In this document: positions 5,501 to 62,060 of the stretch, piece after piece | Position numbering within the stretch: the first letter of the stretch is position 1 | How the letters are laid out: every line of letters begins with the position of its first letter | From: Diphasiastrum complanatum | Taxonomy: Eukaryota > Streptophyta > Lycopodiopsida > Lycopodiales > Lycopodiaceae | Assembly: GCA_029204225.1 (NCBI GenBank) | Contig: CM055095.1 | Coordinates: 13,794,049 to 13,858,048 of the forward strand | Length of the DNA stretch: 64,000 nucleotides | Reading direction: 5' to 3' | Position numbers and translations under genes: made by a program | The notes under the pieces: generated by a model | What the model was told of the DNA's origin: nothing | The model's input: only the letters and a program-made list of their open reading frames with translations | The model's database searches: none

Positions 5501-6925
5501 ATTAAGGTATTAAGGAGTGATAATGGAGGTGAATATGTCTCCAATAAGTTGATTGACTTTTGTATTTCTAATGGCATAAAGAGGGAGTTGTCATGTCCAT
5601 ACACCCCTCAACAAAATGGAGTGAGTGAGAGAAGAAATAGATCTCTTTGTGAGTGTGCTAAGGCCTTAAGGCTAGATGCTTCTCTATCCAAACCATTTTG
5701 GGGTGAAGCAATAACTTGTGCTAACTATTTGTGCAATAGATTGCCAAACCAAGCCATTGGAGGAATGACACCATTTGAAGCTCTATTTGGAGAGAAGCCC
5801 AATCTCAAAGATCTCAAAGTTTTTGGATCCACTTGCTATGTACACCAATCCTTGGATAAGAGAAGGAAGGATGATGCAACATCCATCAAGGGCATCTTTG
5901 TGGGATATGGTGAGAATAGCAAAGGTTATAGAGTCTTCAATCCCATCACTAGCAAGGTGATAGTGAGTAGGGATGTTATTTTTGATGAAGGACATGCTTG
6001 TGATTTGGATGATAATGCTACTAATCATCTTGATGCCAAGAATCATGCTAGGATGGAGGAGGAGCTTCCAAGTGAAGAAGAACTTGAGGATCCACCTCAA
6101 GATGCAAGAACTCCAAGAACTCCAAGAAGATCTACAAGGGCAAGATCCGAGCCATTGAGGCTCACCTATGATGGTCAAGGTGATCAAAGGGAAGGCTCAT
6201 CATCTTTCACATCTTACACCTTTCTTACTTCAATGTTAGATGAGCCAACATGCTATGAAGATGCTTGTAAGTCTAAAAGTTGGATGGATGCTATGCAAGT
6301 AGAGTATGATGCTCTTATTGAGAATCATACTTGGGATCTTGTGGATCTTCCTCAAGGGAAGAAACCTCTTGATTGCAAGTGGGTGTTTAGATTGAAGTAT
6401 AATAAAGATGGATCAATAAGCAAGCATAAAGCTAGGCTTGTTGCCAAAGGTTTTTTACAAACCAAAGGCATTGACTATGATGAGACTTTTGCTCCTGTGG
6501 CTAAGCTTGTTACTATCAGGTTGATCATTAGTCTTGCTACAACCTTCAATTGGGAGCTATTCCAACTTGACTTCATAAATGCATTCCTCAATGGTTATTT
6601 GGAGGAAGAGATCTACATGAGGCAACCCGAGGGCTTCATCAAGGCAAAGCATGAAGGAAAGGTGTGTTTTTTGAAGAAGAGCCTTTATGGGCTCAAGCAA
6701 GCACCTAGAGCATGGTACTCTAGGCTAAACTCTTTTCTCATTTCCATCAATTTTGTAATGAGTGCCTATGATCCATCATTGTATATAAGTTTTCATGATG
6801 GCATGATCATTATTCTTGTTTTGTATGTAGATGACATTATCTTGAGTGGTAATGATCTAGATGGAATTAGAGATGTAAAAATTGCTTTAGCAAAAGAGTT
6901 TAAGATGGTAGATCTCGGCCTATTA
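2551..6925 (+). mobile_element. Ty1/copia LTR retrotransposon fossil (5' LTR, primer site, gag-pol)
   Basis: An LTR-like segment ends CA at 3187, directly before an initiator-Met-type primer site. A ~620-base leader follows, then one long gag-pol frame. The LTR start near 2551 is a guess, because no second LTR is visible for comparison. Copia-type sequence runs out near 6920, where unrelated sequence begins. The copy is therefore incomplete at its 3' side and cannot be autonomous as it stands. The open state of the long frame suggests a fairly young fossil. Confidence 0.85.
3188..3200 (+). other. Primer-binding site of the copia element
   Basis: TGGTATCAGATCC follows the LTR end (...TTTCACA) directly. 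It matches the complement of the plant initiator-Met tRNA 3' end (TGGTATCAGAGCC) at 12 of 13 bases. This fixes the 3' edge of the LTR at about 3187. Confidence 0.85.
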
Positions 6926-7012
6926 AGAATGAAACAACTTTGTCTTTCCGAAGGAGAGCCCGATTTTAATAGAAGTATTTTTTCGATGGATATCCCATCG
7001 GAGGAATCGTGA
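3818..7012 (+). CDS. Copia gag-pol polyprotein frame (1064 codons)
   Basis: This is a copia polyprotein in family order. A gag domain fills about residues 1-240. A CCHC zinc knuckle (CFFCGKKGHFASEC) lies near residue 250, and the aspartic protease (WWIDSGASSHMT) near 307. The pre-integrase motif (LWHKRLGHPNYKAM) lies near 440. The integrase core runs from about 500, with HSDVHSF, a DDYSR segment and SDNGGEY. Reverse transcriptase occupies about 810-1030, with LYVDDIILSG as the catalytic motif. The last ~30 residues are not copia-like and come from the sequence fused downstream. The Met at 3818 sits in good context before SVGAYLLEASERLNSTNYAIW, a normal copia gag start. Part of a fossil; no RNase H is present. 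Confidence 0.9.
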   Translation: MGSVGAYLLEASERLNSTNYAIWKVRMESLMVLQDLYEFLIDDEDEPLGAQELVRYKKRSRLALHYIKMNVSNDLLREVSSCKSAKEAWESLKSIYESSNTSRVLMLRNQILQSMKRSDENAQDYVLRIKSLNRELASIGEKIQDSELVQIVLNGLGSGFTNLVQSFAIQDTLPTIEKLHSVLVAEECRMLHTNARMNAISLQDGDEKANFSFKSKKKTNGKKKHFKETKEEDEASISKGKIKDKSKYKCFFCGKKGHFASECLKKKKTQESKQSNIAHQEEEEDEESSLMVSNKPPSSKSNTNDSWWIDSGASSHMTYQKDIFSTLLSYNDLHRSIYTASSQECKISGIVTIPLYVGSSKRMNLDNVLYVPKLTKNLLSVGQLMDNGLDVQFKHEVCSILRNDECIAKGFKQGRLFKLDANIAVESVNLAKVELSKVELWHKRLGHPNYKAMESMTTKELAVGLPKHLSKCGKRCEACSLSKAHKLPFSRSTSRSNSPLELIHSDVHSFSHESNGGAKYYVIFIDDYSRFCWMYLLSSKSMVFDSFVKFNTLVENQLSTKIKVLRSDNGGEYVSNKLIDFCISNGIKRELSCPYTPQQNGVSERRNRSLCECAKALRLDASLSKPFWGEAITCANYLCNRLPNQAIGGMTPFEALFGEKPNLKDLKVFGSTCYVHQSLDKRRKDDATSIKGIFVGYGENSKGYRVFNPITSKVIVSRDVIFDEGHACDLDDNATNHLDAKNHARMEEELPSEEELEDPPQDARTPRTPRRSTRARSEPLRLTYDGQGDQREGSSSFTSYTFLTSMLDEPTCYEDACKSKSWMDAMQVEYDALIENHTWDLVDLPQGKKPLDCKWVFRLKYNKDGSISKHKARLVAKGFLQTKGIDYDETFAPVAKLVTIRLIISLATTFNWELFQLDFINAFLNGYLEEEIYMRQPEGFIKAKHEGKVCFLKKSLYGLKQAPRAWYSRLNSFLISINFVMSAYDPSLYISFHDGMIIILVLYVDDIILSGNDLDGIRDVKIALAKEFKMVDLGLLRMKQLCLSEGEPDFNRSIFSMDIPSEES

Positions 7013-10690: not shown

Positions 10691-12086
10691 CTTGAAATTC
10701 AATGACGAGTTTGTCCCCATGTGTGTGGTGATTGGAATGTTTATTGTGTATGGTTCTTGCAATGTTTTTCTCCAAAAGTAGGAAAAATGTAATTGAGTAT
10801 AATGTTGCAAGAATAAATCCACTGATGTTAGGCTGTGAAGAAGAAAGGAAGCGCCCTCGGATACAAAATGCCATCCTTCTAAAACATAGATGGAGCCTTC
10901 ATTCTCTTCCAAGCAAGTAGATTGGCTGGCTGGCTTTGATATCAGAAGTTGACAATTTGGGTTGCTTTGAATTTCTTGTCCTGAGCGGAGCATATTCTGG
11001 TGACAGATCCACATGAAGATGATAAAGCTTTATCATCAGTACATTAGTATAGTAACAAACAACACAATGACAATAACAAAGCTGGAGATGGCACTAACGA
11101 CCTTGGAGATAGAGATGGCGTAGGCTTTGTTTATGAAATGTCACTCCTAATTCAAATTTTTGAGTGTTTCCAACTATTGGGAGGGAATATTTCAGCATTT
11201 TGAAAAATTATACTTTAATTGTGGTTAAACACCAATGAAGTTTGATGTGACTAAACTAAGGTGCATTCATTTACATAAAAAGTAGTGTGAGCAGATGCCT
11301 AAAAAAGTTAAAAAATGATATTTTAATTACTGTATAGTTTTTTTTTTCTCTCCTACATGGCATTTCTTATAGGGCCCTTTTGGGCCCATATTTTCTCTAA
11401 TGCTTCACTTTTTTGATCCATTGTAGTCAATTGGCATACTCTCACTGACATCATCATAGTTTTTGCACTTTTTTTTTTTTTTAATTTTTTTTTTTTAAGT
11501 CAGGATCTAAACTAGTCTTAGTTGTAATGCAAGCTTCGCTCTTGCTTGAGCTTACATTTGATTAAACTTCCCCTTTTGGGATGTATATATGTTTCTCATC
11601 AATGTACCTATTAGTTTAAAAATGCACCAAGGTGTTTCTTCAAGTTGGAGTCTTGTAGAGATAAATAAATTCGTTCAAAGTTGTTATGTCAAATTTTGAA
11701 AAGTAGCACCCAAATTAGCAAAGTTGGGAGCATCCTGTATAATAAAAACTACAAATAATTTAGTGCATGTGTGCTTGTGTAGAAATGACAAAACCAAAAC
11801 ACAAGATATATTCATTGCATAAATGTATTTATACATAAAATAATAGGATAAACTACTCATATTTATTGCTCTCTACTACTCACATCCCTCCACCAAAGTA
11901 TGTAAAATCTTCTAGGCCATTTCCTTGTCGATCTAGATAACATTTTTCTAGAGGATCTTAGGATCCAATGCATAAGCAAGTCTACTTTCAAATTAGATTG
12001 ACAAAAATGAATTTTGACACATTTATCCCTAATTATTTCCTAGCTAGTGAGCAAGGGTTCAACACACACTTTTGTTCACAGAAGTG
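10691..12086. other. Non-coding stretch with T-rich runs
   Basis: No gene recognised. T-rich runs occur at about 11338-11350 and 11469-11506. The final bases (CAGAAGTG, 12079-12086) are the left target-site copy of the LTR element that follows. Confidence 0.5.
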
Positions 12087-12915
12087 TGAAAAATGCAAAA
12101 ATAAGCTTGGTAGAGGCCAAAAATCATGTATATAGGATGATTACACATGTGTGGAGCTTGTCCCCACATGTGAAAATAGTGTATTTGTCATGTACCATAA
12201 TCATATAGGTTGTACATATGATTTAATTCAAGTTCTAGTGGCTAAAAAGGCCAAAAGCTAGTTTTCTAGACATATGACACATGGCATCAATCTATTGCTT
12301 GCATGAGCCACATTATTTGGTTAGGTGTCACATCCCATGTGTAGAGGACAACTCACATGTGTGAAATAAGCTGAAGTAGACGAATTTTGACTTCTAGAAG
12401 ATTTTCAAGTAGATCTCCATATAGAAGGAAAATGGACCAAAAGTGCTCAAAATAGAAGGTTTTGTCCAAGTGTCAGTTTTGCATGATGAATCATCATATG
12501 ACAAAGCACCTTCACACACGTGGGATCAAAGGGATGATCAGTACCACGAGCTCTCACTTATTGTATATATAGAGCCACATTTGGCCATAATCGGTGTGAG
12601 ACACCAATCTTGGTTTTGGAAGCAATTTTGAGTGATTCTCTCCATTTGTCTACATTTGTTTTGATTGTTTTGAGGTTCTATCAATGTGTACTTGATTTTC
12701 AGGTTGGAGTCCGTACTCAAACAATGTTTCACACGTGTGAAACCATAAAGTACACTTACCTTCAATTAATGATTGTTCTTGTTAGGATTTTGTGTCTAGA
12801 ATTGATCTAGATTTATTTTAATCTGAAGTAGATTGATAGATCAAATAATCTGACAACCAATCCCTCTTGAGGATCATATTAGGATCCACTCTTGGTCCTT
12901 TTTGTACTTTTTGCA
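12087..12915 (+). repeat. 5' LTR of the LARD-like element
   Basis: It matches 16458-17286 along its whole length. It contains several CACATGTG/CACGTGTG palindromes, including a perfect 16-base palindrome TTTCACACGTGTGAAA at 12727-12742. TATATATAGAG near 12562-12572 is a possible TATA box. Confidence 0.9.
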
Positions 12916-12917
12916 CC

Positions 12918-12930
12918 TGGTATCAGAGCC
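12918..12930 (+). other. Primer-binding site of the LARD-like element
   Basis: TGGTATCAGAGCC is an exact match to the complement of the plant initiator-Met tRNA 3' end. It lies two or three bases after the 5' LTR. Confidence 0.93.
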
Positions 12931-14438
12931 TAGTACAAGAGGTTTTGTTGAAATTGATAGGGTTAATCCAAATCAAAGCCAAAATTAGCAGTTTTTTGGA
13001 AACTAGTCAAATTTTGTGTAGCGAGTTGGATTTGATAGCTATTCTCAAAATTTTTGGTCCAGATCTTGTTGTGGGCTGTAGGAACCTTTTTCACACGTGT
13101 GAGACCGTACCGCTCCGGTTTTGGCTGAGAAATTTCAAAAATTTGTAGAATTTGACTCACATACCCAATTTGAGTGATTTTTGTTGCAAAATCAAGCATT
13201 TTCTATAATAAATCTAATCCTTTGATTAGTTCTTGGATTAGATCAGCCAAAAAATTAAAATTAAAGCTTAAAATAGGTGCATTAATTGATCTTCTCTGAT
13301 TTTTTGAGTGTATGTTGAAGTTAAGAGAGATTTCGCTAAAAATCATAGATTAAGGAGTGATATGCAAGGTGTGAGTTTGAAATCCATTGTATCATCACTC
13401 TAGATTTGTTCAAGAGTGATAGGGTCAAGTTTAGAAGCATCAATTTGCTAGAAAACATCTTTGGATCTGTCCTCCAAGTGAAACCTTTGAGAGTTTCTAG
13501 TGCATATAGAGCATCTATGCAAATCTTTTGTAGAATTTGACATAGATTGGCTTCAATTGAGAGTTCTAGAAAAGAGATTGAGATCCAAGTCCATTGTTCA
13601 ACCCTACTCAATTTGTTTGAGTGATTGTAAGGTTTGAAAAGAGTCATTAAGTTGTCTATGACAAATGTGTAGAGAGAGATCCAATTTCCTAAGAGTTCCT
13701 TCCTTTGTAGAGGGCAAGATCTAGGAGCTCATTATGTGTTGTTATTGGTGGAGAGTTTGTCTCTTCCTAGGTGATCAAATTTTTCTAAGTGGCATTAGCT
13801 CTTTGAAGCACAATATCTTATTGAAAAAAATCACCACTTTTGATTTTGAATTTCATTCCAAGTCTTAAGAGGTAGAGTAATTGGTGGAATCCAATAGGGG
13901 TGATTGAGTCAATTTATTGAGCAAAAATTGACATAGTATGTATGAAACTCAAATTAGTTCTATTCAAACTTTCTTTGTGAGAGTGTGAAGGTCAATTTGA
14001 GATCCCATTGGATGTCTAGAATGAGGAGGAGTCCATATTTGAGTATTCATGCATGGTTGAGAAAATTCATTCTAAATCTCAAGTGTGAGATTATTTGGGT
14101 CAAGAGTGAGTCCAAAAGAAGTGATTAAATTTGATTTTCATGTATTTGAAACAAAACCCATCTTTTGTTCAAGAATCTCAAGTGTTGAGAGAACTAGTCA
14201 AGTGAAAAGGAAAATCTAGGTGTCAAACCTTTTTCATATCCATTTCAACTTTCAAAAGAAAGACTCATTGGTATTTGATGAGTCCAATAGGAGATTGGAT
14301 CTTATTTCTTTAGTGATTTGATTCAAAGATTGTGTGCTTTTGTCTTAGTGATCAAAACAAAGTTTCCAAGTGACTAGTCATTACTGTGAAGATTGATTCT
14401 TAGGTTTGTGAGCTAGATCTTTTGTAGATCTTTCTAGA

Positions 14439-14918
14439 TTGTTGAAGATGTTCAAATCTAGTCTCTTGAAAGTCACAAATTACATTTGTAGAATAATATC
14501 ACAAGTTTTTATTCACATGACATCAATAGGTGACATCATATTGAAGGAAAGAAAGGATCCTGAGTGCAACCTTTGTGGCAAGGGAATATATTTTTTCTCA
14601 AGATACTACAAAAAGAAGACCAGTCCATCCAAGGAGAACCAAAGCAAGGGGGCCGAGGTGAAGGATGGAATTTCAAGTTCAAAATGCAAATACAAGAAGG
14701 ACAAGTCCAAGGAAAGGTGTTTCCTTTGTGGAAAGGTGAATGAGGCTTGGAGTCTCACAAGGACTTGCAAGATTTGTCTTCAAGAGTCCATCACAAAACA
14801 TGTCAAATCTTTTGAAATTTTTCATTTGGAAGTGCATTGTTTGGTTCAAGATGCAAAGATAGATGTCACTTTCATGAAAGTAACTTGGATTTATTTTATG
14901 TCCTTGGAAAGTATTTAG
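14439..14918 (+). CDS. Short frame with two Cys-rich, knuckle-like motifs inside the LARD-like element
   Basis: 159 codons. CNLCGKG and CFLCGKV resemble the first half of the retroviral-type CCHC knuckle, set in Lys/Ser-rich sequence (KEERCFLCGK-like context). This suggests descent from a copia gag. Whether it is translated is unknown. Part of a fossil. Confidence 0.4.
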   Translation: MLKMFKSSLLKVTNYICRIISQVFIHMTSIGDIILKERKDPECNLCGKGIYFFSRYYKKKTSPSKENQSKGAEVKDGISSSKCKYKKDKSKERCFLCGKVNEAWSLTRTCKICLQESITKHVKSFEIFHLEVHCLVQDAKIDVTFMKVTWIYFMSLESI

Positions 14919-15212
14919 ATTGGAACTTTGGACAAGTTCAAACTTATTGTTATTATCCAAGAGAAATCAATCAAAAATAAGGAGCAATCACAAATTGAAA
15001 ATAGTTTGATTTATGCTCTTATGTCAACTTATGAAGAACCATTTTGCTTTGAAGAAATTTTTGTATCTCAAAGGTGGATTAAGGCAATACCAGTTGAGTG
15101 TGATGCCTTAAAAGATAGCAAAATATGTTTTCCTTGTAAGTTTACATTAGTTATGAAGTCAAGGAAATAGAAATATCTTCATAATGTAGGATCTTTTGGT
15201 TTCAATAAGATC

Positions 15213-16451
15213 ATGAATGATGTGTTCATTCATAAAGATAAAAATTGTAAGTTTTCAATCTTAAAGGCAAGTTGTAAACTTCTTATGAGAATAAGTGAAG
15301 CATCCAAAGTGGACACTTATATCCATAAGCAAGTAGTTAGCCTTATTGAGATGGAAATGCCTTTTGATTTCAATATTAGAAAAATCATGCCAAGTTGTGG
15401 TGATTTTTGGACTTATGTTTCTAGCATAAGTAATTTTGATAATCATAGGAAGTGCATATTGTGTGGTCATGGTTGTTGTGATCATTATGAGACATGGAGG
15501 TCTCGGATTTCCATCAAGGAGGAGCACCATGAAGAGGATCTTAAAGAATCATCTCAAAGTTCAAGTGTGCCAAGGATTGAGGAGGAGAGATCTTCTCAAG
15601 TTGTGATTCCAAAAAGAAACTCAAGAAATATGGTTGATTCTATGTGGCTCACATTTCAAGGGAAAGAGGAGCATATCTCATGTGATATACATCTCATACT
15701 TACTTCTCTTATGTCATTTGATAAATCAATTTGCTTTAGTGAGATCATTGCATCTCCAAATTGGAGTAAAGCCATACTAGTTGAGTATGAAGTCTCTCTT
15801 GAAAACATAGACGATGTTCTTAAAAGGTTGAAATTGATTTTAAATCAATTAGAAAGCAAATGGTTATTTCATCAAATGTATGCTCTTGAGCCATGTAAGA
15901 GAAAAAGTGATTTGTTCACTCATAGTTTGAAAATTTGTATTGAGGCAAATTGTAAACTCTTTATGAGAGTAAGTGAATCATCTTCTAAAGACACTTATCT
16001 CCATAATGAAGTATTTAGCCTCATTAGATCTGAGATTAGCATGGTAAACAAGCATGAAGATATGATGCAAACACTTTGTTATTATAGCAAGCATAGTCTT
16101 GCCAATTTGGATAAGTCTAATTCTCTAGATCATGGTAACATGATGATAGATCTTTGTGATCCTAATAAGTCAAGAAGAAATCTTTATTTTCTCATGGAGG
16201 AGCATGCACATGAAGAAGGAGCAAGCCTCAAGATCAAGGAAGGAATCAATTTTGGAAGTGCTAGGATGGTGCAAAGCTCTCAAGCTCATCAAAGATGTCA
16301 ACATCAAAGAAGCACTATCATGGATATGGTGATTTCAGATCAACATCAAGCTCATTGGCTGATCTTCACACCTTTTGAACCAGCAAAGACCAATTCAGCC
16401 CATGGAGTCAAGTTCAAGATCATCATGTTTTCCATCAAGCTAGATTTTTAA
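15213..16451 (+). CDS. 412-codon frame of unknown function inside the LARD-like element
   Basis: The frame is open for 412 codons and stops seven bases before the 3' LTR. It contains an internal repeat: CKLLMRISEASKVDTYIHKQ near residues 21-40 and CKLFMRVSESSSKDTYLHNE near 248-267, each followed by a V.SLI segment. A second module, CFSEIIASPNWSKAILVEYE, resembles the copia stretch between integrase and reverse transcriptase (the ..W..AM..E...L pattern) and also recurs just upstream at about 15046-15110. I see no catalytic motif. It may be a partial duplication of copia-derived sequence kept open by chance, or a real accessory protein. Confidence 0.45.
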   Translation: MNDVFIHKDKNCKFSILKASCKLLMRISEASKVDTYIHKQVVSLIEMEMPFDFNIRKIMPSCGDFWTYVSSISNFDNHRKCILCGHGCCDHYETWRSRISIKEEHHEEDLKESSQSSSVPRIEEERSSQVVIPKRNSRNMVDSMWLTFQGKEEHISCDIHLILTSLMSFDKSICFSEIIASPNWSKAILVEYEVSLENIDDVLKRLKLILNQLESKWLFHQMYALEPCKRKSDLFTHSLKICIEANCKLFMRVSESSSKDTYLHNEVFSLIRSEISMVNKHEDMMQTLCYYSKHSLANLDKSNSLDHGNMMIDLCDPNKSRRNLYFLMEEHAHEEGASLKIKEGINFGSARMVQSSQAHQRCQHQRSTIMDMVISDQHQAHWLIFTPFEPAKTNSAHGVKFKIIMFSIKLDF

Positions 16452-16457
16452 GGAGCG

Positions 16458-17286
16458 TGAAAAATGCAAAAATAAGCTTGGTAGAGGCCAAAAATCATGT
16501 ATATAGGATGATTACACATGTGTGGAGCCTGTTCCCACGTGTGAAAATAGTGTACTTGTCATGTACCATAATCATATAGGTTGTACATATGATTTAATTC
16601 AAGTTCTAGTGGCTAAAAAAGCCAAAAGCTAGTTTTCTAGACATATGACAAATGGCATCAATCCATTGCTTGCATGAGCCACATTCTTTGGTTAGGTGTC
16701 ACATCCCATGTGTAGAGGACAGCTCACATGTGTGGAATAAGCTGAAGTAGACGAATTTTGATTTCTAGAAGATTTTCAAGTAGATCTCCATATAGAAAGA
16801 AAATGGACCAAAAGTGCTCAAAATAAAAGGTTTTGTCCAAGTGTCAGTTTTGCATGATGAATCATCATATGACAAAGCACCTTCACACATGTGGGATCAA
16901 AGGGATGATCAATACCATGAGCTCCCACTTATTGTATATATAAAGCCACATTCGGCCATAATCAGTGTGAGACACCAATCTTGGTTTTGGAAGCAACTTT
17001 GAGTGTTCCTCTCCATTTGTCTACATTTGTTTTGATTGTTTTGAGGTTCTATCAATGTGTACTTGATTTTCAGGTTGGAGTCCGTACTCAGACAATGTTT
17101 CACACGTGTGAAACCATAAAGTACACTTACCTTCAATTAATAATTGTTCTTGTTAGGATTTTGTGTCTAGAATTGATCTAGATTTATCTTAATCTGAAGT
17201 AGATTGATAGATCAAGTAATCTGACAACCGATCCCTCTTGAGGATCAGATTAGGATCCACTCTTGGTCCTGTTTGTACTTTTTGCA
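16458..17286 (+). repeat. 3' LTR of the LARD-like element
   Basis: About 96% identical by eye to 12087-12915. It is preceded by a weak purine run (AAGGAGCG) as polypurine tract. It carries the same TTTCACACGTGTGAAA palindrome at 17098-17113. Confidence 0.9.
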
Positions 17287-17292
17287 CAGAAG

Positions 17293-35200: not shown

Positions 35201-38200
35201 GAAAAAATATGACAGTAGTATTTGATGAATCTACTTGTTTAGTAAAGGACAGTGAGCATAATCAAAAGATTATTGCCAAAGGATCACAAGAGGGTGGTCT
35301 TTATAGGTTGCATACTACTATCCCGAGTCAGGAAGCCTATGGTACTATGAGTAGGCCACCTGAGTTATCAAAGCCTACAGGTCCTAAAGAAACAAGATAT
35401 GGTAATTGGTTTACCCTCTATCAAGTTATGTAATGGCTTTTGTGAAGCATATGCACTTGGGAAACAACAAAAAAAGAGGTTTTCTAAGAATGAAGCTGTC
35501 AGGGCAAAGCAAGTGCTTGAGATTATACACTCAGATTTGTGTGGACCTATGCAAACTAGATCTGCAAGGGGGGTGAGTACAAATGACCTTCATTGACCTT
35601 CATTGCTACTTCATGACCTTCATTGATGACTTCTTGCAGAAGGTATGGGCTTATTTTTTGAAGCAAAAATCTGAGGCAATCAAGTACTTCAAAATCTTTA
35701 AGGCTTTGGTTAAAACTCAAACATGCAAGAAGATAAAGGTACTCAGATCTGACAAAGGTGGTGAGTACAAATCAAAAGATTTCATTGATCTATGTAACTC
35801 AAGTGGAATCAAGCGTCAGTTTGCTACTCCAGATACTCCTCACCAAAACAGAGTTGCTGAAAGGAAGAAGAGGTCCATAGTTGAGTGTGCATGCTGAGGC
35901 AATCAAGTACTTCAAAATCTTTAAGGCTTTGGTTAAAACTCAAACATCCAAAAGAAGATAAAGGTACTCAGATCTGACAAAGGTGGTGAGTACCAATCAA
36001 AAGAGCTCATTGATCTATGTAACTCAAGTGGAATCAAGTGTCAGTTTGCTACTCCAGATACTCCTCACCAAAACGGTGTTGCTGAAACGAAGAACAGGTC
36101 CATAGTTGAGTGTGCATGCAGCACGCTCAAGGCTAAGGCATTGCCAAACTCTAGGCTGAAGTTGTGTATACTGCTGTTTTCTTGTTGAATAGGAGCCCTA
36201 CGAAAGAGGAGGGGGGAATTATGCCTGAGGAGGCATATAGTGGCAATAAGCCAAAGGTGGAACTACTTCGGGTATTTTGATGTACCGCTTATGCACACAT
36301 ACCCAAGGATGACAGGAAGAAGCAAGATGCGAAATCTATCAAGTGCATATTCTTGGGTTACAGTGAGGAAGGAAAGGCATACATATTGTACAATCTTGAG
36401 ACCAAAAAGTAACTAGAGATGTTGCCTTCGATGAAGACCATGCACCTCAGGTGGAGGAGCATGAGAACAATGGTAAGAGTGAGTATCTTCCTATTATTGA
36501 TTCCAGTGTGCAGGTCTCTAAGGAGCCCATTCAAGAGACTTTTCAGCCCCAACATTAAGAGCAAATGCATGTTGAGCAAACAGAGGCAGAAAGGAAAAAG
36601 AGGGCTAGAGAGACACCTTGGGATACATGGTCACCAAAAGCTTCACCTCCCCCTCCCAAGAGCTTACCAAGGTGGTATTGGCAAACAGTGAAAGATGGAG
36701 GGATGATGGAGGAAGGCGAATGTAGTAGGGAAGGTGTTAGGAGATCTTACAAGAAGCCCATGCAGCGAGAGAATCAAGAGACCAACTTTACACTTAAGTC
36801 ATCTATCTTCGAGTCACATGAACCACAGTCATTCTATGATGCCGAGAAGGTGAATGTATGATGAAATGCCATGCAAGAGGAGTATGACTCCATCATGGAG
36901 AATGCCACATGGGAGCTTGTGGACTCACCTGATGGAAGCAACCATAAGTAAGAATAAGTTACTCATTGCTAAGGTCAAAGAAAATCTTTCTAGTGAATTT
37001 GACATGCTCAGAGGCATATCTAATAGCAGACTCACATGCTACAAGAATATCTAATAAGCACTTGAAAAATGGTCCCATTGGTTAGATGACACAAGGGAGG
37101 GTTAATAGAGGTTACAGAGGATGTATACGGAACTTCTCATTGATGACCAACAATTCCTAGATAAGGAAGAAATGTTAGAATCCAGTCTCGATCCTAGGGT
37201 TATAAAGTGTTAGTTGTTAGGGCTATCTTGGATTGCAACAGTGCTTGCTCAGGCAATATATATCATGCTGCTTCTATATCCAAATTTTCAACCTTCATAT
37301 CTGAAGCTAGAAGAAAAGTGTTGTAAGAAAGCAACTTCTAGCTTTCTCAAAAATCGACTTGGCTGATTTGAAAGAAAGCTTATGGACCTATTACTGCAAA
37401 TTGGAATTAAGAATTATGAGACTCATCCTAATCAAAAGGTGTTTCTTACTATAGATATCTGATCTACTATAAATTCTAAAGCATCACTCTCTTATACAAT
37501 AGATTTTCATCTTGATAATTGATCATGCTCAAAACTAGGGTTGAAAAAGCATGATTCAACTCTCAAGAGCTTTTTTTCATTTGAAACCAAAAAAAAGCAT
37601 ATTGTTCTTCTACTTCATGTCGCCTGCCATTAAAGATCTCATACAGTACAATAATGAGAAGCACGAGATCTAAGAAAAAAATCTTCGATTAATGGCTCAA
37701 GTGGAACTTATTCAGTGAATTGAGTCCACCATAGTTCACCTTGCAATCAACAACCCAACTTCAGATATTCTAACTTATTTACCTTTGAATTTCAAATCGT
37801 GAGTTAAAAGCAATAAAGGTTCAATGTGCTCATCAAGTGTCAGGACTGTGATTTTTGTTAATGTGGAGTGAGATCATGCTTTAATTTCACAAAAACCGGC
37901 AATCACCAGCATCCAATAGAATTTACTGTTCCTGCTGAAAGAATGTGATGTCTATGAGAAGGTGTTAAAAATCCATAGAATTTTATCTATTTTTGAAGAG
38001 CTACTTTTGGAAACATATGAAGTCCAAATGTAGAATATTTCATATAGAAGTGCTTTCTCATTCTATTTGAAACATTTTCACTTGAACAATAATAAAATCC
38101 ACTGGCCACCTTCTAACCATAATGCACAATTAGAGATCAAAGAAACTCCACTACCACTTTGAAGAACAGAAATTGGGGTGAATCTGTAGAGACTGCTGGT

Positions 38201-44142: not shown

Positions 44143-44619
44143 TGTTAGAGCCCAGTTATGGCTCTATCACGATCTCGGCATGGTTGGTTACCAAAGGGCC
44201 TGAGGCCTAGTATTGGCAAGGGTTGGTGACCGACGAGGACATCTGTCCCAAATAGGGACTAGTGCGTCACGAGCAGTGATCCGGTGTGGCCGCCTGACAA
44301 GTTGTCAGAGACACGGTGTGTCTTGACCGTCGGGACCCTAGCCGTCAGTGACGAGATGCTAGCCGACAAGTAGTCGGGGTGACCAAGCGGGTCACAGGTC
44401 TTTGCCGGGGCACGGGGGTGGTACCCTATGAGTCACTCAGTATTCACAGGTCACAGGGGTCATGCATGCCAAGTGGACTGATCACCCACAGGTGGATGCC
44501 ATGTGCCAGTTGACGGGAATAGCAGGTAGGACTCAAAGAGGGGGTGCCTATGGTTGGGAGGTGCATTCTACACACTAGCCTTCTAGGATTCACGAGCTTG
44601 GAGAGACTGGCTTGTGACA
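44143..44619 (+). repeat. 5' LTR of the chromodomain gypsy element
   Basis: TGTTAGAGCCCAGTTATGG ... GGCTTGTGACA. The same LTR family appears at 58.3-58.66 kb and 61.03-61.84 kb. Confidence 0.93.
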
Positions 44620-44621
44620 AA

Positions 44622-44634
44622 TGGTATCACAGCC
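44622..44634 (+). other. Primer-binding site of the chromodomain gypsy element
   Basis: TGGTATCACAGCC lies three bases after the LTR end. It matches the initiator-Met tRNA complement at 12 of 13 bases. Confidence 0.88.
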
Positions 44635-44929
44635 TCGGTCTAGAGAGAGAAACGTCCGTTCTAGAGAGAGAAAGTGTAAAAATTGTCATTTTTTCCTTGT
44701 TTTTGAGGGATCTGGGAGGGAGAAAATCTTAGAGACAGATTGGAGAAGAAGGGTGGACCTCCAACGTTGTTGTTCTAGCCTAGAGGGAGCCCACAATAAT
44801 CCGATTTGAAAGAGGAAAAAATTGGCAAAATTCTGGTGATGCTCCATCGCCCTCCTATAGCCAATCTCCATCGTTGGTAAAGGAGGGAAAAGGGTTCAAA
44901 TTTGAGGAGATTTTGGGCACACTTTCTAC

Positions 44930-45060
44930 CTACAGCTCCAGCGCTGTTCTAGCGCTGATCTAGCGCCCAATTACAACTGTTCCAGCGTTGTTTTAAGGAT
45001 CTATCAACGTCCAAATTTTTGGGGAATTGGAGCGCTGCTCTAGCGCTAATAAAGCGCCCT
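44930..45060 (+). repeat. AGCGCT-rich motif cluster in the gypsy leader
   Basis: CCAGCGCTG, CTAGCGCTG, CTAGCGCCC, GAGCGCTGC, CTAGCGCTA and AAGCGCCC recur within about 130 bases. AGCGCT is a self-complementary hexamer. It sits in the untranslated leader, where retroelements often keep RNA dimerisation or packaging signals. Confidence 0.7.
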
Positions 45061-48000
45061 CCTTCAACGTTTGTTTTGGTGTTTTCTATCAACGGCCAGG
45101 AAGAGGTTTTGTTGGGGGTCTGACCAGCTCTCTTTAATTCTCATTATCCACGGTTTGGTGACAGTAGATTCAGCGAGCTCAGAGGGCAATAGATAATCCG
45201 ATTTTTCAAGCACTTAATGATCTATCTCTCTGTCAGTGCGCTACAAAGTGCAGGTAGAATAACTCCCAAGGAGGAGAAACTTACGTACCTGCTACGAGCA
45301 CTACCACCCTCCTACAAATCAGCGCCCTTCTAATCTGATTTTTTTCAGCGCTCTTTTCTAGCTTTCCGTGGATTGGTTGATTGTAGTCTTTGCTACACCA
45401 AAGGACATCTTTTCTATATAAAGCCTGCACTGTCCGAGGAAGATTACGAGCAGCGACCATCTACTACAACCAGGTGCATTTCCACCACCCAGCCCTGTGC
45501 TTGGTCCTGCCCATAATCCACCTACAGTGGCTGCCCGTTCGCCTGCTGGTACTTCCCCTTCTGTGCAAGCTCGCATGGATAGTGTGGAAAGGACTGTCGC
45601 AGAGATGCGAGCGATGATGGTAGCTGATGGTTATGCATCTTCCTCGCAGTATGCTCCGCCTTATCTGTCCTTCTGTTGTTCGTCCTGTGTTACCTCCACC
45701 CTACCCAAAAGACAAAGATATTAAACCTACCCGTTTCGCAGGAAACACTCCCCAACGAAATACTAATATCATAGATCAGTGGTTGCATAAGTGGGAAGAG
45801 TATTTTGATTTGAAGCGGTCCCCAACTGATGAGGATTGGCGGGTCCGCAAAGCTGCTTACCATTTCACTGATTTTGCTGATAGGTAGTGGCGCAAGTTGT
45901 TGAAGTCAAAACAGGCTCCATTCACCTGGATTAAGTTTAAGTGAGCTTTTAGAGCTCAGTTCATTCCTCCACATGAGCATGTGCGTGCGACGGATGCTTG
46001 GCTTTTGCATCGTCAGAGGCAGTACATGGTGCAGGAATATGCTGATAAGTATCATGAGACGCTTATCAAGATCCCAGAAGAGATACATGAGTGGCTAGTA
46101 GTCCACAGGTTCATATTTGGCCTTCGTGAAGAGTTGAGGCCTTCAGTGCTGAATGAAGGGTGCAAAACCTTAGAAGAGGCAGTTGCTACAGCTCTCAACT
46201 TTGAAGGTAATGTGCGCACCAAGGCTGAATCTGGAGCGCCAAGCTGGCCTCAGAAGAAGGGTTTGGTCGTCGTGCTTACGACAAGTCTCCCCTTAGTCCT
46301 GAGCAAAAAAAAAAGGCCAAGAAAGACGGATTATGTTTTTTTTGTCTTGGCAAGCATCTTTTCAAAGATTGTCCTCGACGTACGGGCAAGAAGCTCCATA
46401 CTATGCAACGTCAAGATGAGGGCAAGGATAGGAAATTTTGGATGACTTGTTGGTAAGTGATGATGAGGACACTTGTCGTGTCATGGCTATTTCGGTGTGG
46501 AAGCTTGGTCCAGAGGCACCAGTTTGTTATTTGTCCACCAAGCGCGTGAAGCTTATCAGTTTCCTAATAGTGCACTGATACGCACGAGGGGGAAGCTGGG
46601 AGGTCATGACATGCTCGTCTTGTTTGACACCGGTTCCTCGCATAATATTATCTATTCTCGCGTGGTGAGGAAGTTTAGCTTAGCTACTGTTCCATCTGAT
46701 TACCGGTATACTGTTGAGATGCTAGATGGTAAGGGTACAGAGGTTTGGGATGAAAGAATCTCTTAGGTGTCTTTGTCTATTCAGACGTATACCGAGAAGT
46801 TAGATTTTAATATTACTAAACTAGCTAAGTTTGATATTGTACTTGGTAAGCGGTGGCATGCAAGTAAGCAGCCCGCTATAGATTTTAAGTCACATGTGTA
46901 TAAGTTTGGGCATGAGGGTATGTCTCATGTCTTAAAGGGGGAGAGACCATTTGTTGAGGGTCCTCTTGTTACCTGTATGCAAATAAAGAGAATGGAGATT
47001 TAGTATTTGTGGTTGTGTTATGTGAATGTTGATTCCAGTTTTGATTCTTATGTTGATAATACTCATATAAGCACACTCACTAATAAACCACAAGAAGCTT
47101 CATCTACTTTTGCATCCCCTAGTGCACATGCATTTTCATTACAGCCTAGATGTGACCCAGCAAGTGAGTTGGAGAAGTCCATCCGCACTCAGTTTAGACA
47201 CGTGCTAATTAGTAATATGCCAGAGGGATTGCCGCCTAGTCAGAACGTTGATCATTGTATTGAGCTCGTTCCAAGGGCAAGTCCGGTATGTAGGCCTCCT
47301 TATAGGATGAGCCTAAAAGAGGAAGAGAAAGTCAGAAAGATGTTGGAGTATCTCAAGCTCGGGTACATCCGTCCTAGTTATTCACCTTTCGCCTCTCCTA
47401 TTTTACTTGTTAAGAAATAGGATGGTAGTTTCGGATGTGTGTAGATTACAGGGGATTGAATAAGATCACTGTAAAGCACATGTATCTGATGCCCAGGATT
47501 GATGATCTACTAGATGCGTTGCAAGGTGCAACCATTTTCAGTAAGATAGATCTCAAAAGTGGATACCATCAAATACGGATTCGAGATGAAGACATCCAGA
47601 AGACGGCCTTCCGAACCCGTTTCCGCCCCAGCCACGTTCATGATGCTCATGAACGATGTCTTGCGAGATTATATGGGCAAGTTTATAGTCAATTTTATTG
47701 ACGATATATTGGTTTTTAGTAAAGCGGTCGAGGAGCATGAGGTTCACCTCAAGACCGTATTTGGCAAGTTACAAGCTTTTGTCTTGTACGCCAATGCTCA
47801 GAAGATAGAGTTGTGTAAAACTCGTGTCGAGTATTTGGGTCACGTAGTGACAACTGAGGGTATTTCGGTTGACTCAGCCAAGGTGGCTGTGGTTAAGAAG
47901 TGGCCGAGGCCTGCCAATTGTAATCTTTCTTAGGCTTTTGTAAGTTCTACCGGCGGTTTGTTAGGAATTATTCCTGGATAGCTGCTCCTCTAACGGACCA

Positions 48001-50001
48001 GTTACGGAAAAACAACACTGTGGTTCGATGGGATGCTGAAGCTCAGCAACGTCTTGAGAACTTGAAGGAGTCTGTGGCCACGGCTCCAGTCCTCAAGATT
48101 GTGGATACCCAAAAACCTTTAGACCTAGAGACGGATGCAAGTGGCATTGCCGTAGGTGCAGTGTTGAGCCAAGAGGGTAGACCAGTAGCCTTTGAGAGTA
48201 AGAAGTTGACACCAGCTCAACAGAAATATCCTACACACAAGTAAGAGTTGTATGCGATTATACATGCGCTCAAGGTGTGGAGACATTATTTATATGGTGC
48301 CGAGTTTTATGTGTACACAGATCATCATACTTTAGAGTATTTTTGCACTCAGCCAAATTTGAAAGGCCGCCAAGCTCAGTGGGCCGAGCTAATGCAGGAA
48401 TTTCACTTGGAAATTCGCTTCCGAAGAGGGAAGGAAAATGTGGTCGTTGATGCACTCTCTCGTATACTGCATCAGATGAGCTTTACTGTGGTTGACAGTG
48501 GTCTCATGGAGGAGATTAAGAAGGCTCAAGAAAAGGACCCGCATTGTCAGCGTGTGGCCTAATGCGCGCAAGGTAGTCGACCAAACGGAAGAGTCAGTCG
48601 AGGCTGTCGCTTCCGTAGAGGCACATACCAGTACATATCTAACATACACCGTGAAGGATGGTATGTTAATGAGAAATGGAAGAGTTTTCGTGCCAGACGT
48701 GAAGGATCTTCGTCGTAAGATACTTCATGAATGCCATGATAGTCCCTGCGCAAGGCACCCTGGTATTGATAAGCCTAGTGAGCTTTTAAAAAGGCATTAT
48801 TTCTAGCCACGATTGCAGCGGGATGTAAGAGAGTACGTCCAGCGTTGCACGGTTTGTCAAGTGAACAAGGCCGAGACAGTAAGTCCTCCGGGCTTGCTAC
48901 ATCCACTTGAGATACCTACAGGAAGGTGGGAAAGCATCTCTATGGATTTTATTGTTGGGCTACCCAAGACCCATAAGGGATTAAATTCCATTATGGTAGT
49001 GGTAGATAGGTTTTCCAAGATGGCTCACTTCATCGCAACGACAAGAAGGTCACAGCTCCGCAGGGTTGCTGACTTGTTTATTGAGAATATTGCCAGGTTA
49101 CATGGCCTTCTGAAGTCCATTGTTTCTGACAGGGATCCCAAGTTTACGGGAAATTTCTGGATTGAGGTGTTCACCAAGCTGGGAACACAGTTGCGGATGA
49201 GTAGCTTTGAGCATCCTCAGACGGATGGTCAGACAGAGCGAGTGAACCAAATCTTGGAAGATATGCTTAGGGCATATGTTAGTAGTACGCGAACAGACTG
49301 GGTAAAGCATTACCGCTATTGGAGTTCGCGTACAATGATAAGAGACATGCGTCCACTGGATTGAGTCCATTTGAGCTCAATTATGATTTCAGGCCACTTA
49401 GTCCTGCAATCATAGGGATTCCGCATAGGGTACCTAGTGTTGTAGAGTTTTTGGCTCAGATGCAGCAGAAGCTAGAGATGGCACGAGATAACTTGTCCAA
49501 GGTTGTAGCTAGGACAGAGAGTTATACCCGTGAGAACCGTACCTATCGGGAATTTGAAAATGGAGATTGGGTGTATTTACTAGTCCCTTCGAAGTCGAAG
49601 GTGCTACGCACAGGAAAGTGCGCCAAGTTATCTCCTAGGTATTGTGGACCATGGTTGATTATTAAGAAGGTGAGCCAAGTAGCTTATAAGCTACAGCTAC
49701 CTGTGGGATCCAATGTGCATCCAATGTTTCATGTTAGCAAATTGAAGAAATGTTTGCACGATGGCGATAGCCTGGTGGAAGGTCTAGTGTCTCTAGAGGA
49801 GAAAGACACCACAGGTTATGGGCCAGAAAGAATCCTAGATCGAAGGGAGCGACGATTGCGGAATCGTCTCCTTCAAGAGTATCTAGTAACCTGGAAAGGG
49901 CATCCGTTGTCAGATGCTACCTGGGAGATGCGACAGGCATTGCAAAGTCTTACCCGGAGTTTGTCATCGAGGACCGATGACTTGCCAGAGAAGGGAAGGA
50001 T

Positions 50002-50481
50002 TGTTAGAGACCAGTTATGGCTCTATCATGATCTCGGCATGGCCGGTTACCAAAGGGCCTGAGGCCTAGTATTGGTAAGGGTCGGTGACCGACGAGGACA
50101 TCTGTCCCAAATAGGGACCGGTGCGTCACGAGCAATGATCCGGTGTGGCCGCCTGACAAGCTGTCAGAGACGCGGTGTGTCTTGACCATCGGGACCCTAG
50201 TCGTCAGTGACGAGATGCTAGCCGGCAAGTAGTCGAGGTGACCAAGCAGGTCACAGGTCTTTGGAGGGGCCCGGGGGTGGTACCCTATGAGTCACTCGGT
50301 ATTCACAAGTCACAGGGGTCATGCATGCCAAGTGGACTGATCACCCACAGGTGGATGCCATGTGCCAGTTGATGGGAATAGTAGGTACAAGGACTCAAAG
50401 AGGGGATGCCTATGGTTGGGAGGTGCATTCTACACACCGGCCTTCTAGGATTCACGACCTTGGAGAGACTGGCTTGTGACA
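50002..50481 (+). repeat. 3' LTR of the chromodomain gypsy element
   Basis: TGTTAGAGACCAGTTATGG ... GGCTTGTGACA, then the target duplicate CAAGG. About 28 differences from the 5' LTR by eye, mostly transitions. Confidence 0.93.
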
Positions 50482-50486
50482 CAAGG

Positions 50487-51310
50487 TGACCCTCTCCATT
50501 ACATTTGAAGCAAAGATTCTTCTTTCGAGCTTCCACTAGGTCTTTCTTGCCACCTTGATGTTTATTAAAGTGGTGTTTGAGTTTCTTAGAATTAGGATTT
50601 GAAGATGGCTCATTGGTAACTTCCTTATCCTTTCTTTTAGATTGGAAACCCTTCTTTTGCTCATTAGGGTGATGACTCTTAAGTGGCTTAAGAGTATCAT
50701 CAAAAAAATTTGCAGCCCTAATAGCATCTTCTAGGGTGTTAGGATGGTTTCTTCTAACATCCACTTCATAATCTTTAGGTAAATCATCAATAAACATGAG
50801 CATCTGTATCTTTGGACGTATTTCACTATAAAGAGGAATAAGATACTCATGGAAATCTTGAATGAATTGATCAAGGCCTTTGCTCATGGTTAATCCCGAA
50901 AGCTTTTGGAAATGTTCATAGTCATGTAACAAGGGAAGAAAGTATTCCTTGAATACTAGGCAAAATGCCTCCCATGTTAAGGGTTGTTTTTCTTTGGCTA
51001 CTAAATCCTCCCACCAAACTAAGGCTTTTTCATCCAAAAACATAATGGCGGTGGAGAGTTTTAAACTTTCAAAAAATGTATTCGCGGCAAAATATGTATT
51101 CCAAACATTAAGCCATGAATTAACTACTTGTCGACTCCTCTCTTTCTTTTCCCCTTTATACACTTTAACGGGAGGAGGTACTACATGCTTTCGATGACTA
51201 GTCAACTTAGATTCAAGGGCTTGATTCTTAAGAATAGTTTCATGTAGTTGTTGGTTTGTAGCAATGTGGAATGGAGAACTATCCTTTGTTTTGGTAGGAG
51301 TTGCTAGCAA
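50487..51310 (-). CDS. Gypsy gag of the older minus-strand element
   Basis: A retrotransposon gag domain (YFAANTFFESLKLSTAIMFL, WEDLVAKEKQPLTWEAFC, FKEYFLPLLHDYE) is followed by a Lys-rich linker. The start of a CCHC knuckle (CFKCNGEGHL) lies where the younger gypsy is inserted. The frame continues into that element's LTR, so its last codons are not gag. Confidence 0.82.
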
Positions 51311-58254: not shown

Positions 58255-58664
58255 TCAAGAATTGACATCAAGATCGTTAGGTCTCCCAAACTTATCTAAA
58301 ACTAGCAAGGTGGGGATTCCCAGTCAGCGACTTCTTATAGCCTAACAATTGTCAAAGAAGTGGCAATTTGCGACCGTTCGGATCCTAGTTGTCAATGCTG
58401 AGATGCTAGCTGGCAGAGCCACCAAGGTGACCAAGTTGGTAATAGGTCCATGGCGGTGCATGGGGGTGGTACCCTATGAGTCACTCAGTATTTATAGGTC
58501 ACACAGACACTAGGTGGACTAATCGCCTACAGATGGATGCGATGTGCCAGGTGAAAGGAATAGCAAGTAGGACTCATCGAGGGGGTGCCTACAGTTGGGG
58601 GGAGGTTCATTCTACACACCAACCTTTTGGTTTGACAAGTTTGGAGAGACATGTTTGTGACAAT

Positions 58665-58677: not shown

Positions 58678-59908
58678 TCGTTCTACAGAGAGAGTGCCCC
58701 ATTCTAGAGAGAGAAAGTGTGGAAAAACACCTAATTTACTAAATTTCTTGAGGAATTTGGGGAAATAATGAAAAAATCAGAATAGGTAGGTGTTTCCTAC
58801 CCTCACCATTGTAGTCAAGCTCTAAAAACGTTTTGATTTTCTTGAAGATAGCCAGCCCACTACCTGCAAGCAACACTAGCACACTTTTCCTTGCAAACAA
58901 ATTTGAGAATTTTGCCATAAGTTCTTCTACAATTGTTGGATTGCAATCAAATTCTAGCAAGCTTTTTGGGGTACTAATCGCTACCTGGAAAGCATCACCA
59001 TCTTACTTGACACCTGCTCCTCACATAATATTGTCAATTCACATGTAGAGAAAAAGCTTTGCTTAGCAACTATTCCTTTTGATTAACAATCGACAATTGA
59101 GATGCAAGGTTGTAAAGGAACAAAAGTTTGGAATGAGAGAGTCTCTTGGGTGTCTTTGTCTATTCAGACGTATTCCGAGAAGGTAGACTTTGAAATCACT
59201 AAATTAGCTAAGTTTAATATTGTTTTGGGTAAGCGGTGGCATGCGTGTAAGCAACCTACTATAGATTTTATCTTGCATGTGTATAAGTTCAGACATGAGG
59301 GTATGTCTCATGTCTTAAGGAAAAGAGACCATTTGTTTAGGTTACTTGTATGCAAATAAAGAGAATGAAGTTCTATGAATGTTGTATCAATGAAGCATAA
59401 ATGATTATAATAGACAAAATCAAGCAATCTCTCATGAAGAATGACCAAGAGCATCTGATATAAGGCCAAGTGAACAATCAGGAAACACCATCAAGAGCCC
59501 AAGGTATCCATAAGGCCCATGAGTGTATAGCATCAACGTCGACTGTAGCAAAGTCGTACATAAAAGCACGAGCATAAACATGGAAACTCATCTAGAAAAA
59601 TCTCGACACAAGATGACATTTAACGAGCACACACGATATGTAAAACACACGAGCACACACAAATTTTCTCTTTCTTCTTCTGCCTCTTTTTTTTTTCAAA
59701 AAAAAATAATAAATAAATAAAAACAAAACAAAAAAATAAAAACAAATTAGAAGATAAGTATTTCTAAAACAAGAAAGCTCCAAGTAGGGTGGGTATGCTG
59801 CCCCGTAAAATCAGCAAGGTAGCTCAAACTTTGGTAGCAAAGAGGGTGATATGCAATGGCTAGAATGTAGGCAAAAACCAGAAAACAATTGCTAATAAAA
59901 GATGTGTC

Positions 59909-60015: not shown

Positions 60016-60026
60016 GCCAAAACCTC

Positions 60027-60308
60027 TGTTAGAAATCCATAATTCATAATATGGATGGACACACTAGGATTTGAACCCAGGTCCTAGTTGTCACCTGCCC
60101 CACAACTTGGGACACCTAACCATGCTTTGACACCATGAACTATTAGATCTAACTTGGCACTAATACCATGTTAGAAATAATTCATAATATGGATGGACAG
60201 ACTAGGATTCAAACCCAGGACCTCTCTCATACCGGATGGGATGCTCTACCACTGAGCTATTTGCCCTATTTGATAGTTCTCTCTAGAGTGTGGATTGGTA
60301 TTTCCACA
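60027..60308 (-). mobile_element. TRIM copy 1: miniature LTR element with a tRNA-like LTR
   Basis: On the minus strand: a complete LTR of 140 bases (60308-60169) starting TGTGGAAATACC and ending TTTCTAACA; then a primer-like site TGGTATTAGTGC (60168-60157); a short non-coding interior; and a partial second LTR ending GGATTTCTAACA at 60027. The 5-bp duplication ACCTC stands on both sides (60022-60026 and 60309-60313), so both ends are authentic. The element has no coding capacity and must depend on another element's proteins. It belongs to the same family as 61180-61500. Confidence 0.87.
60195..60266 (-). promoter_or_regulatory. tRNA-like segment with A and B boxes inside the LTR of TRIM copy 1
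   Basis: The 5' arm GGGCAAA pairs mostly with the 3' arm TCTGTCC. The A box TAGCTCAGTGG (60259-60249) fits the consensus TRGCNNAGYNGG. The B box GGTTTGAATCC (60215-60205) is one base from GGTTCGANTCC. Box spacing is tRNA-like. It suggests an internal RNA polymerase III promoter within the LTR. Confidence 0.75.
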
Positions 60309-61242
60309 ACCTCCTCTAAATAGGGTGCTACAAAGTGCAATAGGTACTGCTCAAAAAATCCACCGAACCAGTTGTTTGAAAATATAGCAGCCAACTTAAA
60401 AAGCTGTCAGAAATGATTTGCAAAAAAAGAAAAAGAAAAAATTCTGCCACCAAGTTTAGCGGAAGAACAGCCGCCTTAAAAAAACGAGATCTGCAAGTGT
60501 GGAGAAAAACTATCACTCCCACCAAGGAAAGTGCTCTATTACCAAGTTATAGACTCAATCTATGATATTGTATAATGAAGCACAAATGACTATAATAGAC
60601 ACAATCAAGCAATCTCCCACGAAGAATGACCAAAGAGCATCCAATATAATCAATGGCTAAAGCCCTACAAGCGATAGCAAAGAGTTCTCTCACGAAGAGC
60701 CCAAGAAATACCAATAAGTTGAATAACACATGAATTCCTAATGTCTAAACAATAGCCCTATATATACTTTCTACAGGCCCTTAGTGGAACTTTCTAGAGA
60801 TTAGGGCAACTTAGGTATTTGGGTCATATAAGAACATGCCCTTAATGGTAATTGGCTCAATACCTAAAGGTATACTAGTTAGGGGCTATTCCCAGTATAT
60901 AAATAAGAGCGTCTAGTGACTTGGAAAGGGCATCCATTGTCAGATGCTACATAGGAGCCATTTCAGAATTTGTAGAAGTCTTACCCAAAGTTTGTCATCA
61001 AGGACCAGTGACTTGCCAGAGGAGAGAAGGATTGTTAGAGTCAAGTCTGCCTCTAGCATGACCGCGGCATGGCCGATTACCAAAGAGGGCCTGAGGCCAA
61101 GTACTGGCGAAGGCCGATAACCAAAGTGGACGTTTGTCCCTAGCTAGGACCGTTGTGTCACAAGCAGTGACGAGGTGTGTGTTGGAATATCAATCCACAC
61201 TCTAGAGAGAACTATCAAACAGGGCGGACAGCTCAGTGGTAG

Positions 61243-61255
61243 TGGTATCAGAGCC
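61243..61255 (+). other. Primer-binding site of TRIM copy 2
   Basis: TGGTATCAGAGCC, an exact 13-base match to the complement of the plant initiator-Met tRNA 3' end. Confidence 0.93.
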
Positions 61256-61358
61256 AAGTTATACCTAACAGTTCATGGTGTCAAAGCCATGGTTAGGTGG
61301 CCCAAGTTGTGGGGCAAGTGACAGCTAGGACCCCAACCAAGTGTGGCTTGAGGGGGGG

Positions 61359-61500
61359 TGTTGGAATATCAATCCACACTCTAGAGAGAACTATCAAACA
61401 GGGCGGATAGCTCAGTGGTAGAGCATCCCACCGGTATGAGGGAGGTCATGGGTTCGAATCCTAGTCTGTCCATCCATATTATGGTTTATGGATTCTAACA
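61359..61500 (+). repeat. Complete LTR of TRIM copy 2
   Basis: Bounded by TGTTGGAAT and ATTCTAACA, the short inverted ends typical of LTRs. About half of it is the tRNA-like segment 61401-61471. Confidence 0.9.
61401..61471 (+). promoter_or_regulatory. tRNA-like cloverleaf with perfect A and B boxes inside the TRIM LTR
   Basis: Acceptor arms GGGCGGA (61401-61407) and TCTGTCC (61465-61471) pair at all seven positions, two of them G-U. The D arm is GCTC/GAGC (61410-61413, 61421-61424). The T arm encloses TTCGAAT with four of five pairs. The A box TAGCTCAGTGG (61408-61418) and B box GGTTCGAATCC (61451-61461) fit the RNA polymerase III consensus. The anticodon arm is only 4 bp with a 10-base loop and no proper anticodon, so this is not a decoding tRNA. 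No TTTT terminator follows within the element. Function as a promoter is inferred. Confidence 0.82.
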
Positions 61501-61836
61501 ATGTGACCACCTGACAAGCTGTCAAACAGATCTGTGACCGTCATGATCCTATCTTGTCAATGACGAGATGCTAGCCATAGCCGACAAGCCACCGGGGTGA
61601 CCAACTGGGTCACAAGTCCATGGTAGGGCATGGGGGTGGTACCGTATGAGTCACTCAATATCACCGGTCACAAGTGACATGCATGGCAAGTGGAGTGATC
61701 AACCATAGTTGGATGCCATGTGCCAAGTGACAAGAGTAGCAAGTAGGACTTATAGAGGTGGTGCCTACAATTTGGGAGGTTCATTCTACAAATTGACCTT
61801 TTCGTTTCACGAGCTTGGAGAAACAGGCTTGTGACA

Positions 61837-62060
61837 TAACATGTCAATCGTATGGATGAAGAAAATAATAGCGGCACTACGAATATCATGGGACCAAATA
61901 TCCAATGCCAAAGTTGTACCCATAGATACACTGCTAAAATATGCCATGATCAAATCTCAAGCATTGTAAAGTTTAAGATTTAGCAGTATCCTTGAACAAT
62001 CATCTCATCATGGCCAAACAAGAGTTGTTAATGTCTAGTGCATTAAGGCGCTAGAGTAAA
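61837..62060. other. Short unassigned stretch
   Basis: Lies between the gypsy LTR end and the LINE fragment. No content recognised. Confidence 0.4.

Follow-up and report, generated by a model that had tools for sequence, protein, structure and literature searches.

A probable Helenus-type TRIM with a tRNA-like segment in its LTRs in the clubmoss Diphasiastrum complanatum

Introduction

Helenus, a name introduced in 2024, denotes TRIMs that carry a tRNA-like sequence in both LTRs together with a primer site and a purine tract, and the group TRIMp3 unites it with Cassandra and Ajax (Kojima 2024, PMC10886601). In the available part of that work, the elements measure 311-1263 bp in total, generate target duplications of 5 bp in plants and fungi, and are reported to conserve the box B motif GGTTC; their polymerase III transcription is, according to Kojima, unvalidated (PMC10886601). 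The sole plant listed for Helenus in the accessible text is the spikemoss Selaginella moellendorffii, in which Helenus-1_SMo combines a 120-bp LTR with an 85-bp internal part (PMC10886601).

The Helenus/TRIMp3 literature that we found, accessible in part, consists of this paper (PMC10886601) and a 2026 meeting report. An inventory of TRIMs published in 2016, which spanned 48 plant genomes, recorded eight subfamilies in Selaginella, and the word tRNA was not found in the available portion of its text (PMC4717578). Judged by titles and abstract openings, no other report of tRNA-bearing plant TRIMs was found, nor was a Helenus-type report for the Lycopodiales in a search that had most subscription papers and Repbase outside its range. 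The preliminary description of the locus studied here had known of no family with such a layout; this reading of novelty fails, because the Helenus/TRIMp3 layout was described in 2024, as set out in the available text (PMC10886601).

Results

Genomic setting

The window, that is, the whole stretch of DNA analysed (64 kb), contains, on its minus strand from 39629 to 20255, the exons of a gene for the methylcrotonoyl-CoA carboxylase beta chain. Diphasiastrum complanatum is a clubmoss of the class Lycopodiopsida, order Lycopodiales, and the joined exons match its protein O6H91_04G023800 with 100% identity over 83% of the query; the other 119 of the 120 matches listed reach at most 82%. In the reverse comparison, tblastn of O6H91_04G023800 on the window returned eight stretches of 79-100% identity, and the mismatches were taken as overhang into introns, given the 100% identity of the joined exons over their aligned parts. 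On the evidence of this one gene, D. complanatum is the most likely source of the window.

The window also holds further retroelement sequence. A long open Copia polyprotein frame spans 3821-7009; over the first 400 residues, identity to the best-scoring database relative is only 29%, and its best database matches are about 24-43% identical. An LTR element at 12080-17287 has 837-bp LTRs that are 96% identical, with the primer site TGGTATCAGAGC at 12918, and a tandem duplication of ~225 bp (95% identical; 35671-36119) lies inside a frame judged by eye to be Copia integrase-like.

Anatomy and insertion of copy A

The element first described, here copy A, occupies 321 bp on the plus strand (61180..61500), with limits set by the LTR repeat and by a gap-free alignment of its flanks to uninterrupted paralogous LTRs. 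Several features named in the preliminary description were borne out: the complete 3' LTR (61359..61500) is 142 bp long with TG...CA ends, and the primer-binding site TGGTATCAGAGCC (61243..61255), of a plant type, and the polypurine tract GAGGGGGGG (61350..61358), which adjoins the 3' LTR, are both present. These two open and close an internal region of 116 bp (61243..61358). The preliminary description assigned the primer site to initiator-Met tRNA, a putative identity. The ends and layout given earlier likewise stand, but the earlier account had omitted that the 5' LTR (61180..61242) is truncated to 63 of 142 bp. What remains of it is 98% identical to the copy's own 3' LTR (BLAST; one mismatch over 64 aligned bases) and ends three bases past box A, where the primer site directly abuts; in its present form, the 5' LTR retains the A-box region as CAGCTCAGTGG and has no B box.

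The join created by this truncation (61236-61250) falls exactly on the border between LTR and primer site, which is the expected end of minus-strand DNA during reverse transcription. From this single case, the junction could reflect either a strand transfer that failed and was followed by end joining, or a later deletion. Slippage between two TGGTA motifs was also considered as the cause of the deletion, and is not supported, because both motifs remain at the junction.

The flanks of copy A align at 73-78% identity to the uninterrupted LTR region 49875-50484 and to the LTR 44143-44619, which are the pair of a single element and hence not mutually independent. With copy A and one 5-mer removed, the two flanks close up gap-free on a lone GTGTG in each of these LTRs (50143-50147 and 44284-44288). 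Given that the empty sites carry one GTGTG, the near-repeat noted earlier, GTGTG on the left (61175..61179) and ATGTG on the right (61501..61505), represents a true target duplication of 5 bp in which one base changed afterwards. The alignment directly indicates that 61180 and 61500 are the ends of a single insertion of the LTR type.

The element that supplied the empty sites extends over 44143-50487, with LTRs that align at 44143-44625 and 50002-50487 (93%), and was judged by eye from its reading frames to be gypsy-like. Related pieces lie at 58366-58662 and 60905-61839, the latter containing copy A.

A second, independent insertion

BLAST of the element against the 64-kb window located a second copy, copy B, ~0.9 kb from copy A on the opposite strand, so that the family counts two copies within the window. 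Copy B is an insertion of 282 bp in reverse orientation (60027..60308, minus strand, as are all its parts). Its 5' LTR is complete (60169..60308; 140 bp) and ~89% identical to the 3' LTR of copy A (BLAST), and is followed by the primer-binding site TGGTATTAGTGCC (60156..60168), with two changes within the first 12 bases. The remaining 89 bp of the internal region (60080..60168), from which the purine tract is absent, are 90% identical to that of copy A (BLAST), and the 3' LTR (60027..60079) is truncated to 53 bp, keeping the 3' half of the tRNA-like segment with the B box GGTTCAAATCC. The insertion is flanked by an exact duplication of GAGGT, at 60309..60313 on its upstream side and 60022..60026 on its downstream side. 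The 64-kb window yielded no empty site for copy B.

Around copy B, a direct repeat of ~92 bp (88%; 59372-59463 and 60559-60649) perhaps marks the ends of another element that received it. A second word resembling a primer site, TGGTGTCAAAGC, occurs in the internal regions of both copies (61276-61287 and 60124-60135), in each case 33 bases downstream of the start of the first primer site. The losses in the two copies are complementary: the 5' LTR of copy A no longer has the 3' part of the tRNA-like segment, and the 3' LTR of copy B no longer has the 5' part, copy B having lost the purine tract as well. Both copies are defective and neither is complete; by arithmetic (142 + 116 + 142), a complete element would measure ~400 bp.

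Copies A and B lie in different targets and have different duplications, and have in common the LTR, the position of the primer site and the internal region. All four LTRs contain tRNA-like sequence, complete in the 3' LTR of copy A and the 5' LTR of copy B and reduced to half in the two others. Because copy B is independent, has an exact GAGGT duplication and repeats the same layout, the tRNA-like part belongs to the LTR. It had been proposed that the locus is a miniature LTR element built around a tRNA-like Pol III promoter, and this structural reading is supported and strengthened by copy B. A SINE inserted once, or copies without the boxes, had been named as what would speak against it; on two copies no refutation emerged, tRNA-like sequence being present in both LTRs of each. 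That a single tRNA-derived SINE entered the LTR of an unrelated element, leaving a layout that is a local accident, would agree with the SINE insertion proposed as the general origin of such LTRs in the accessible text (PMC10886601, section 4.2). Two independent insertions in different targets, each with tRNA-like sequence in both LTRs, are at odds with it, and we reject this account, which copy B contradicts, as highly improbable.

The tRNA-like segment and its boxes

In copy A the tRNA-like segment lies at 61401..61472, as delimited by ARAGORN and Rfam RF00005, with the A box TAGCTCAGTGG at 61408-61418 and the B box GGTTCGAATCC at 61451-61461. Both boxes and the fold named in the preliminary description are thereby upheld, but the length is 72 nt, not 71. 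The segment scores 43.1 bits against RF00005 (E 7.9e-6) and its counterpart in copy B (60194..60266, minus strand) 41.7 bits, the gathering score being 29; the latter is called Pro-CGG by ARAGORN and has the A box TAGCTCAGTGG and the B box GGTTTGAATCC. No other sequence in the 64-kb window reaches the gathering score of an Rfam model, and ARAGORN predicts no further tRNA there. A joint pattern for the two boxes, drawn up after both copies had been seen, occurs twice in the window, both times in these copies, and in none of 100 shuffles. An exact match of a 22-base LTR word was sought in viral contigs and none was found; a 25-base word compared with prokaryote genomes matched one bacterial contig, at a tRNA-Val gene, which was taken as chance.

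The ARAGORN calls, one of them a nameable tRNA, would be expected if the two segments were decayed tRNA genes or pseudogenes beside which LTR features had arisen by chance. Against this stand the TG...CA LTRs of 142 and 140 bp, the primer site, the similarity of the internal regions, the 5-bp duplications and the empty sites, and the anticodon of copy A is read by ARAGORN as four bases; copy B and the empty sites contradict the idea, to which we attach a negligible probability. No sequence of the window matched 5S rRNA at gathering threshold, which bears on a different misreading, that of a Cassandra element, a 5S-bearing TRIM, whose primer site has the same sequence, TGGTATCAGAGC, in the accessible text of PMC7215508. 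The element also has no box C within one mismatch (the 5S box A being outside the search), and with both 5S match and box C absent we reject this identity as scarcely credible.

Across the LTRs, the boxes vary to some extent. Among the three that reach the position of box A, two carry TAGCTCAGTGG and one, the 5' LTR of copy A, CAGCTCAGTGG, in which the first base is changed. Likewise, three LTRs reach box B, with GGTTCGAATCC, GGTTTGAATCC and GGTTCAAATCC; the GGTTC motif is found in two of these, the 5' LTR of copy B having GGTTT. Compared with GGTTCGAATCC, GGTTTGAATCC and GGTTCAAATCC differ by C-to-T and G-to-A changes at the same CpG, consistent with decay of a methylated ancestor that had GGTTCGAATCC. 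Of the two complete LTRs, one has both boxes intact.

The LTR segment is presumably of tRNA origin. A working tRNA is unlikely, given that the stems vary (a non-standard pair in the acceptor stem of copy B and a G-to-A change at position 41 of its tRNA-like part) and that the anticodon of copy A has four bases. RNA folding energies are not better than those of shuffles (z -0.38 and +0.79), so that the evidence consists in the covariance model and the boxes, not in stability. A 29-base identical stretch upstream of the tRNA-like part had been considered as a sign of selection and was dropped: a run as long arises in 0.42 of random scatterings.

The variation of stem positions and of one B box between copies, and folding that is no better than in shuffles, would fit a conventional TRIM with RNA polymerase II transcription, whose tRNA-like stretch is an inert relic left long ago by an inserted SINE or tRNA gene. 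Against this, the tRNA-like segment is full-length and its A box intact in both of the complete LTRs, a CAA stands at the distance customary for a start, and the boxes are the conserved part in the Helenus families described in the accessible text (PMC10886601, section 3.5). We regard the relic as unlikely.

Transcription and proposed mechanism

In plant tRNA genes, CAA triplets at positions -1 to -10 serve as start sites, and such a triplet is present in only 36-45% of angiosperm tRNA genes, as given in the accessible text of PMC11700998. Copy A has a CAA at 61395..61397 on the plus strand, -6 to -4 from the 5' end of the tRNA-like segment; because only 36-45% of angiosperm tRNA genes have one, it is mild support for a Pol III start. 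A TTTT terminator is found on the sense strand of neither copy. This is uninformative, since 812 and 612 of 1000 shuffles are also free of TTTT, and the scarcity of T-runs, not significant against shuffles, was dropped as evidence for Pol III.

From these features we infer a possible course for the element's transcription and mobilisation in trans. Polymerase III factors would bind the A and B boxes in the 5' LTR, and RNA polymerase III would start at or near the CAA at 61395; with such a start, U3 would be ~36 nt long and R would begin just upstream of the tRNA-like part. The transcript would continue through the element into the 3' LTR. Minus-strand DNA would be primed by a tRNA with a 3' end fitting TGGTATCAGAGCC, the shared R would enable the first strand transfer, and the purine tract would prime the plus strand. 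Integrase and reverse transcriptase would be supplied in trans by a host LTR retrotransposon, and insertion would duplicate 5 bp. As to such a partner, BLAST found no match to the internal region elsewhere in the 64-kb window outside the primer site; the Copia-like frame from 3821 and other elements of the window have similar primer sites.

Discussion

Collectively, these results make it very probable that the element is a Helenus-type TRIM of the clubmoss Diphasiastrum complanatum, a non-autonomous one whose LTR has a tRNA-derived segment as a constitutive component and for which a mode of working through Pol III is proposed. The sequence-level Helenus features that were tested are present when copies A and B are combined, namely tRNA-derived sequence within the LTRs (43.1 and 41.7 bits, with half segments in the truncated LTRs), two LTRs with primer site, purine tract and the length of a TRIM, and a 5-bp target duplication (exact GAGGT in copy B, GTGTG/ATGTG in copy A).

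Its presence in another lycophyte, from an order other than that of Selaginella, would mean that Helenus in plants is not a one-species oddity, and the clubmoss element offers a test between common descent and repeated origin of tRNA-bearing LTRs. As a tentative idea, which we hold to be rather doubtful, the lycophytes (Lycopodiales and Selaginellales) may hold an old, vertically inherited Helenus lineage with a tRNA-based Pol III LTR promoter that predates the split of the orders, is widespread in the clubmoss genome and is the source of many predicted tRNA genes, as in rust fungi. A caution for tRNA annotation follows from the window itself, where both tRNA predictions are retrotransposon LTRs.

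Among known systems, tRNA-derived SINEs (SINE2) resemble the clubmoss element in having a tRNA-like part with A and B boxes. They differ in that the clubmoss segment lies inside LTRs, accompanied by a primer site, a purine tract and 5-bp duplications, which suggests mobilisation of the LTR type and not target-primed; no LINE-type insertion headed by a tRNA at its 5' end was seen, the segment being internal to TG...CA LTRs. Cassandra is likewise a TRIM with the promoter of a small-RNA gene in its LTR, and the first 12 bases of the copy A primer site equal the Cassandra primer site as given in the accessible text (PMC7215508), but the promoter is 5S there and tRNA-like in the clubmoss element. 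With Helenus, as far as its published description is accessible (PMC10886601), the element shares short LTRs that contain a tRNA-like segment with A and B boxes, a primer site, a purine tract and the 5-bp duplications seen in plants; in many Helenus families, too, the segment is not predicted as a working tRNA. It differs in its dimensions, a 142-bp LTR and a 116-bp internal region against 120 and 85 bp in Helenus-1_SMo, and in its host, which most likely belongs to the Lycopodiales, whereas that of Helenus-1_SMo belongs to another lycophyte order.
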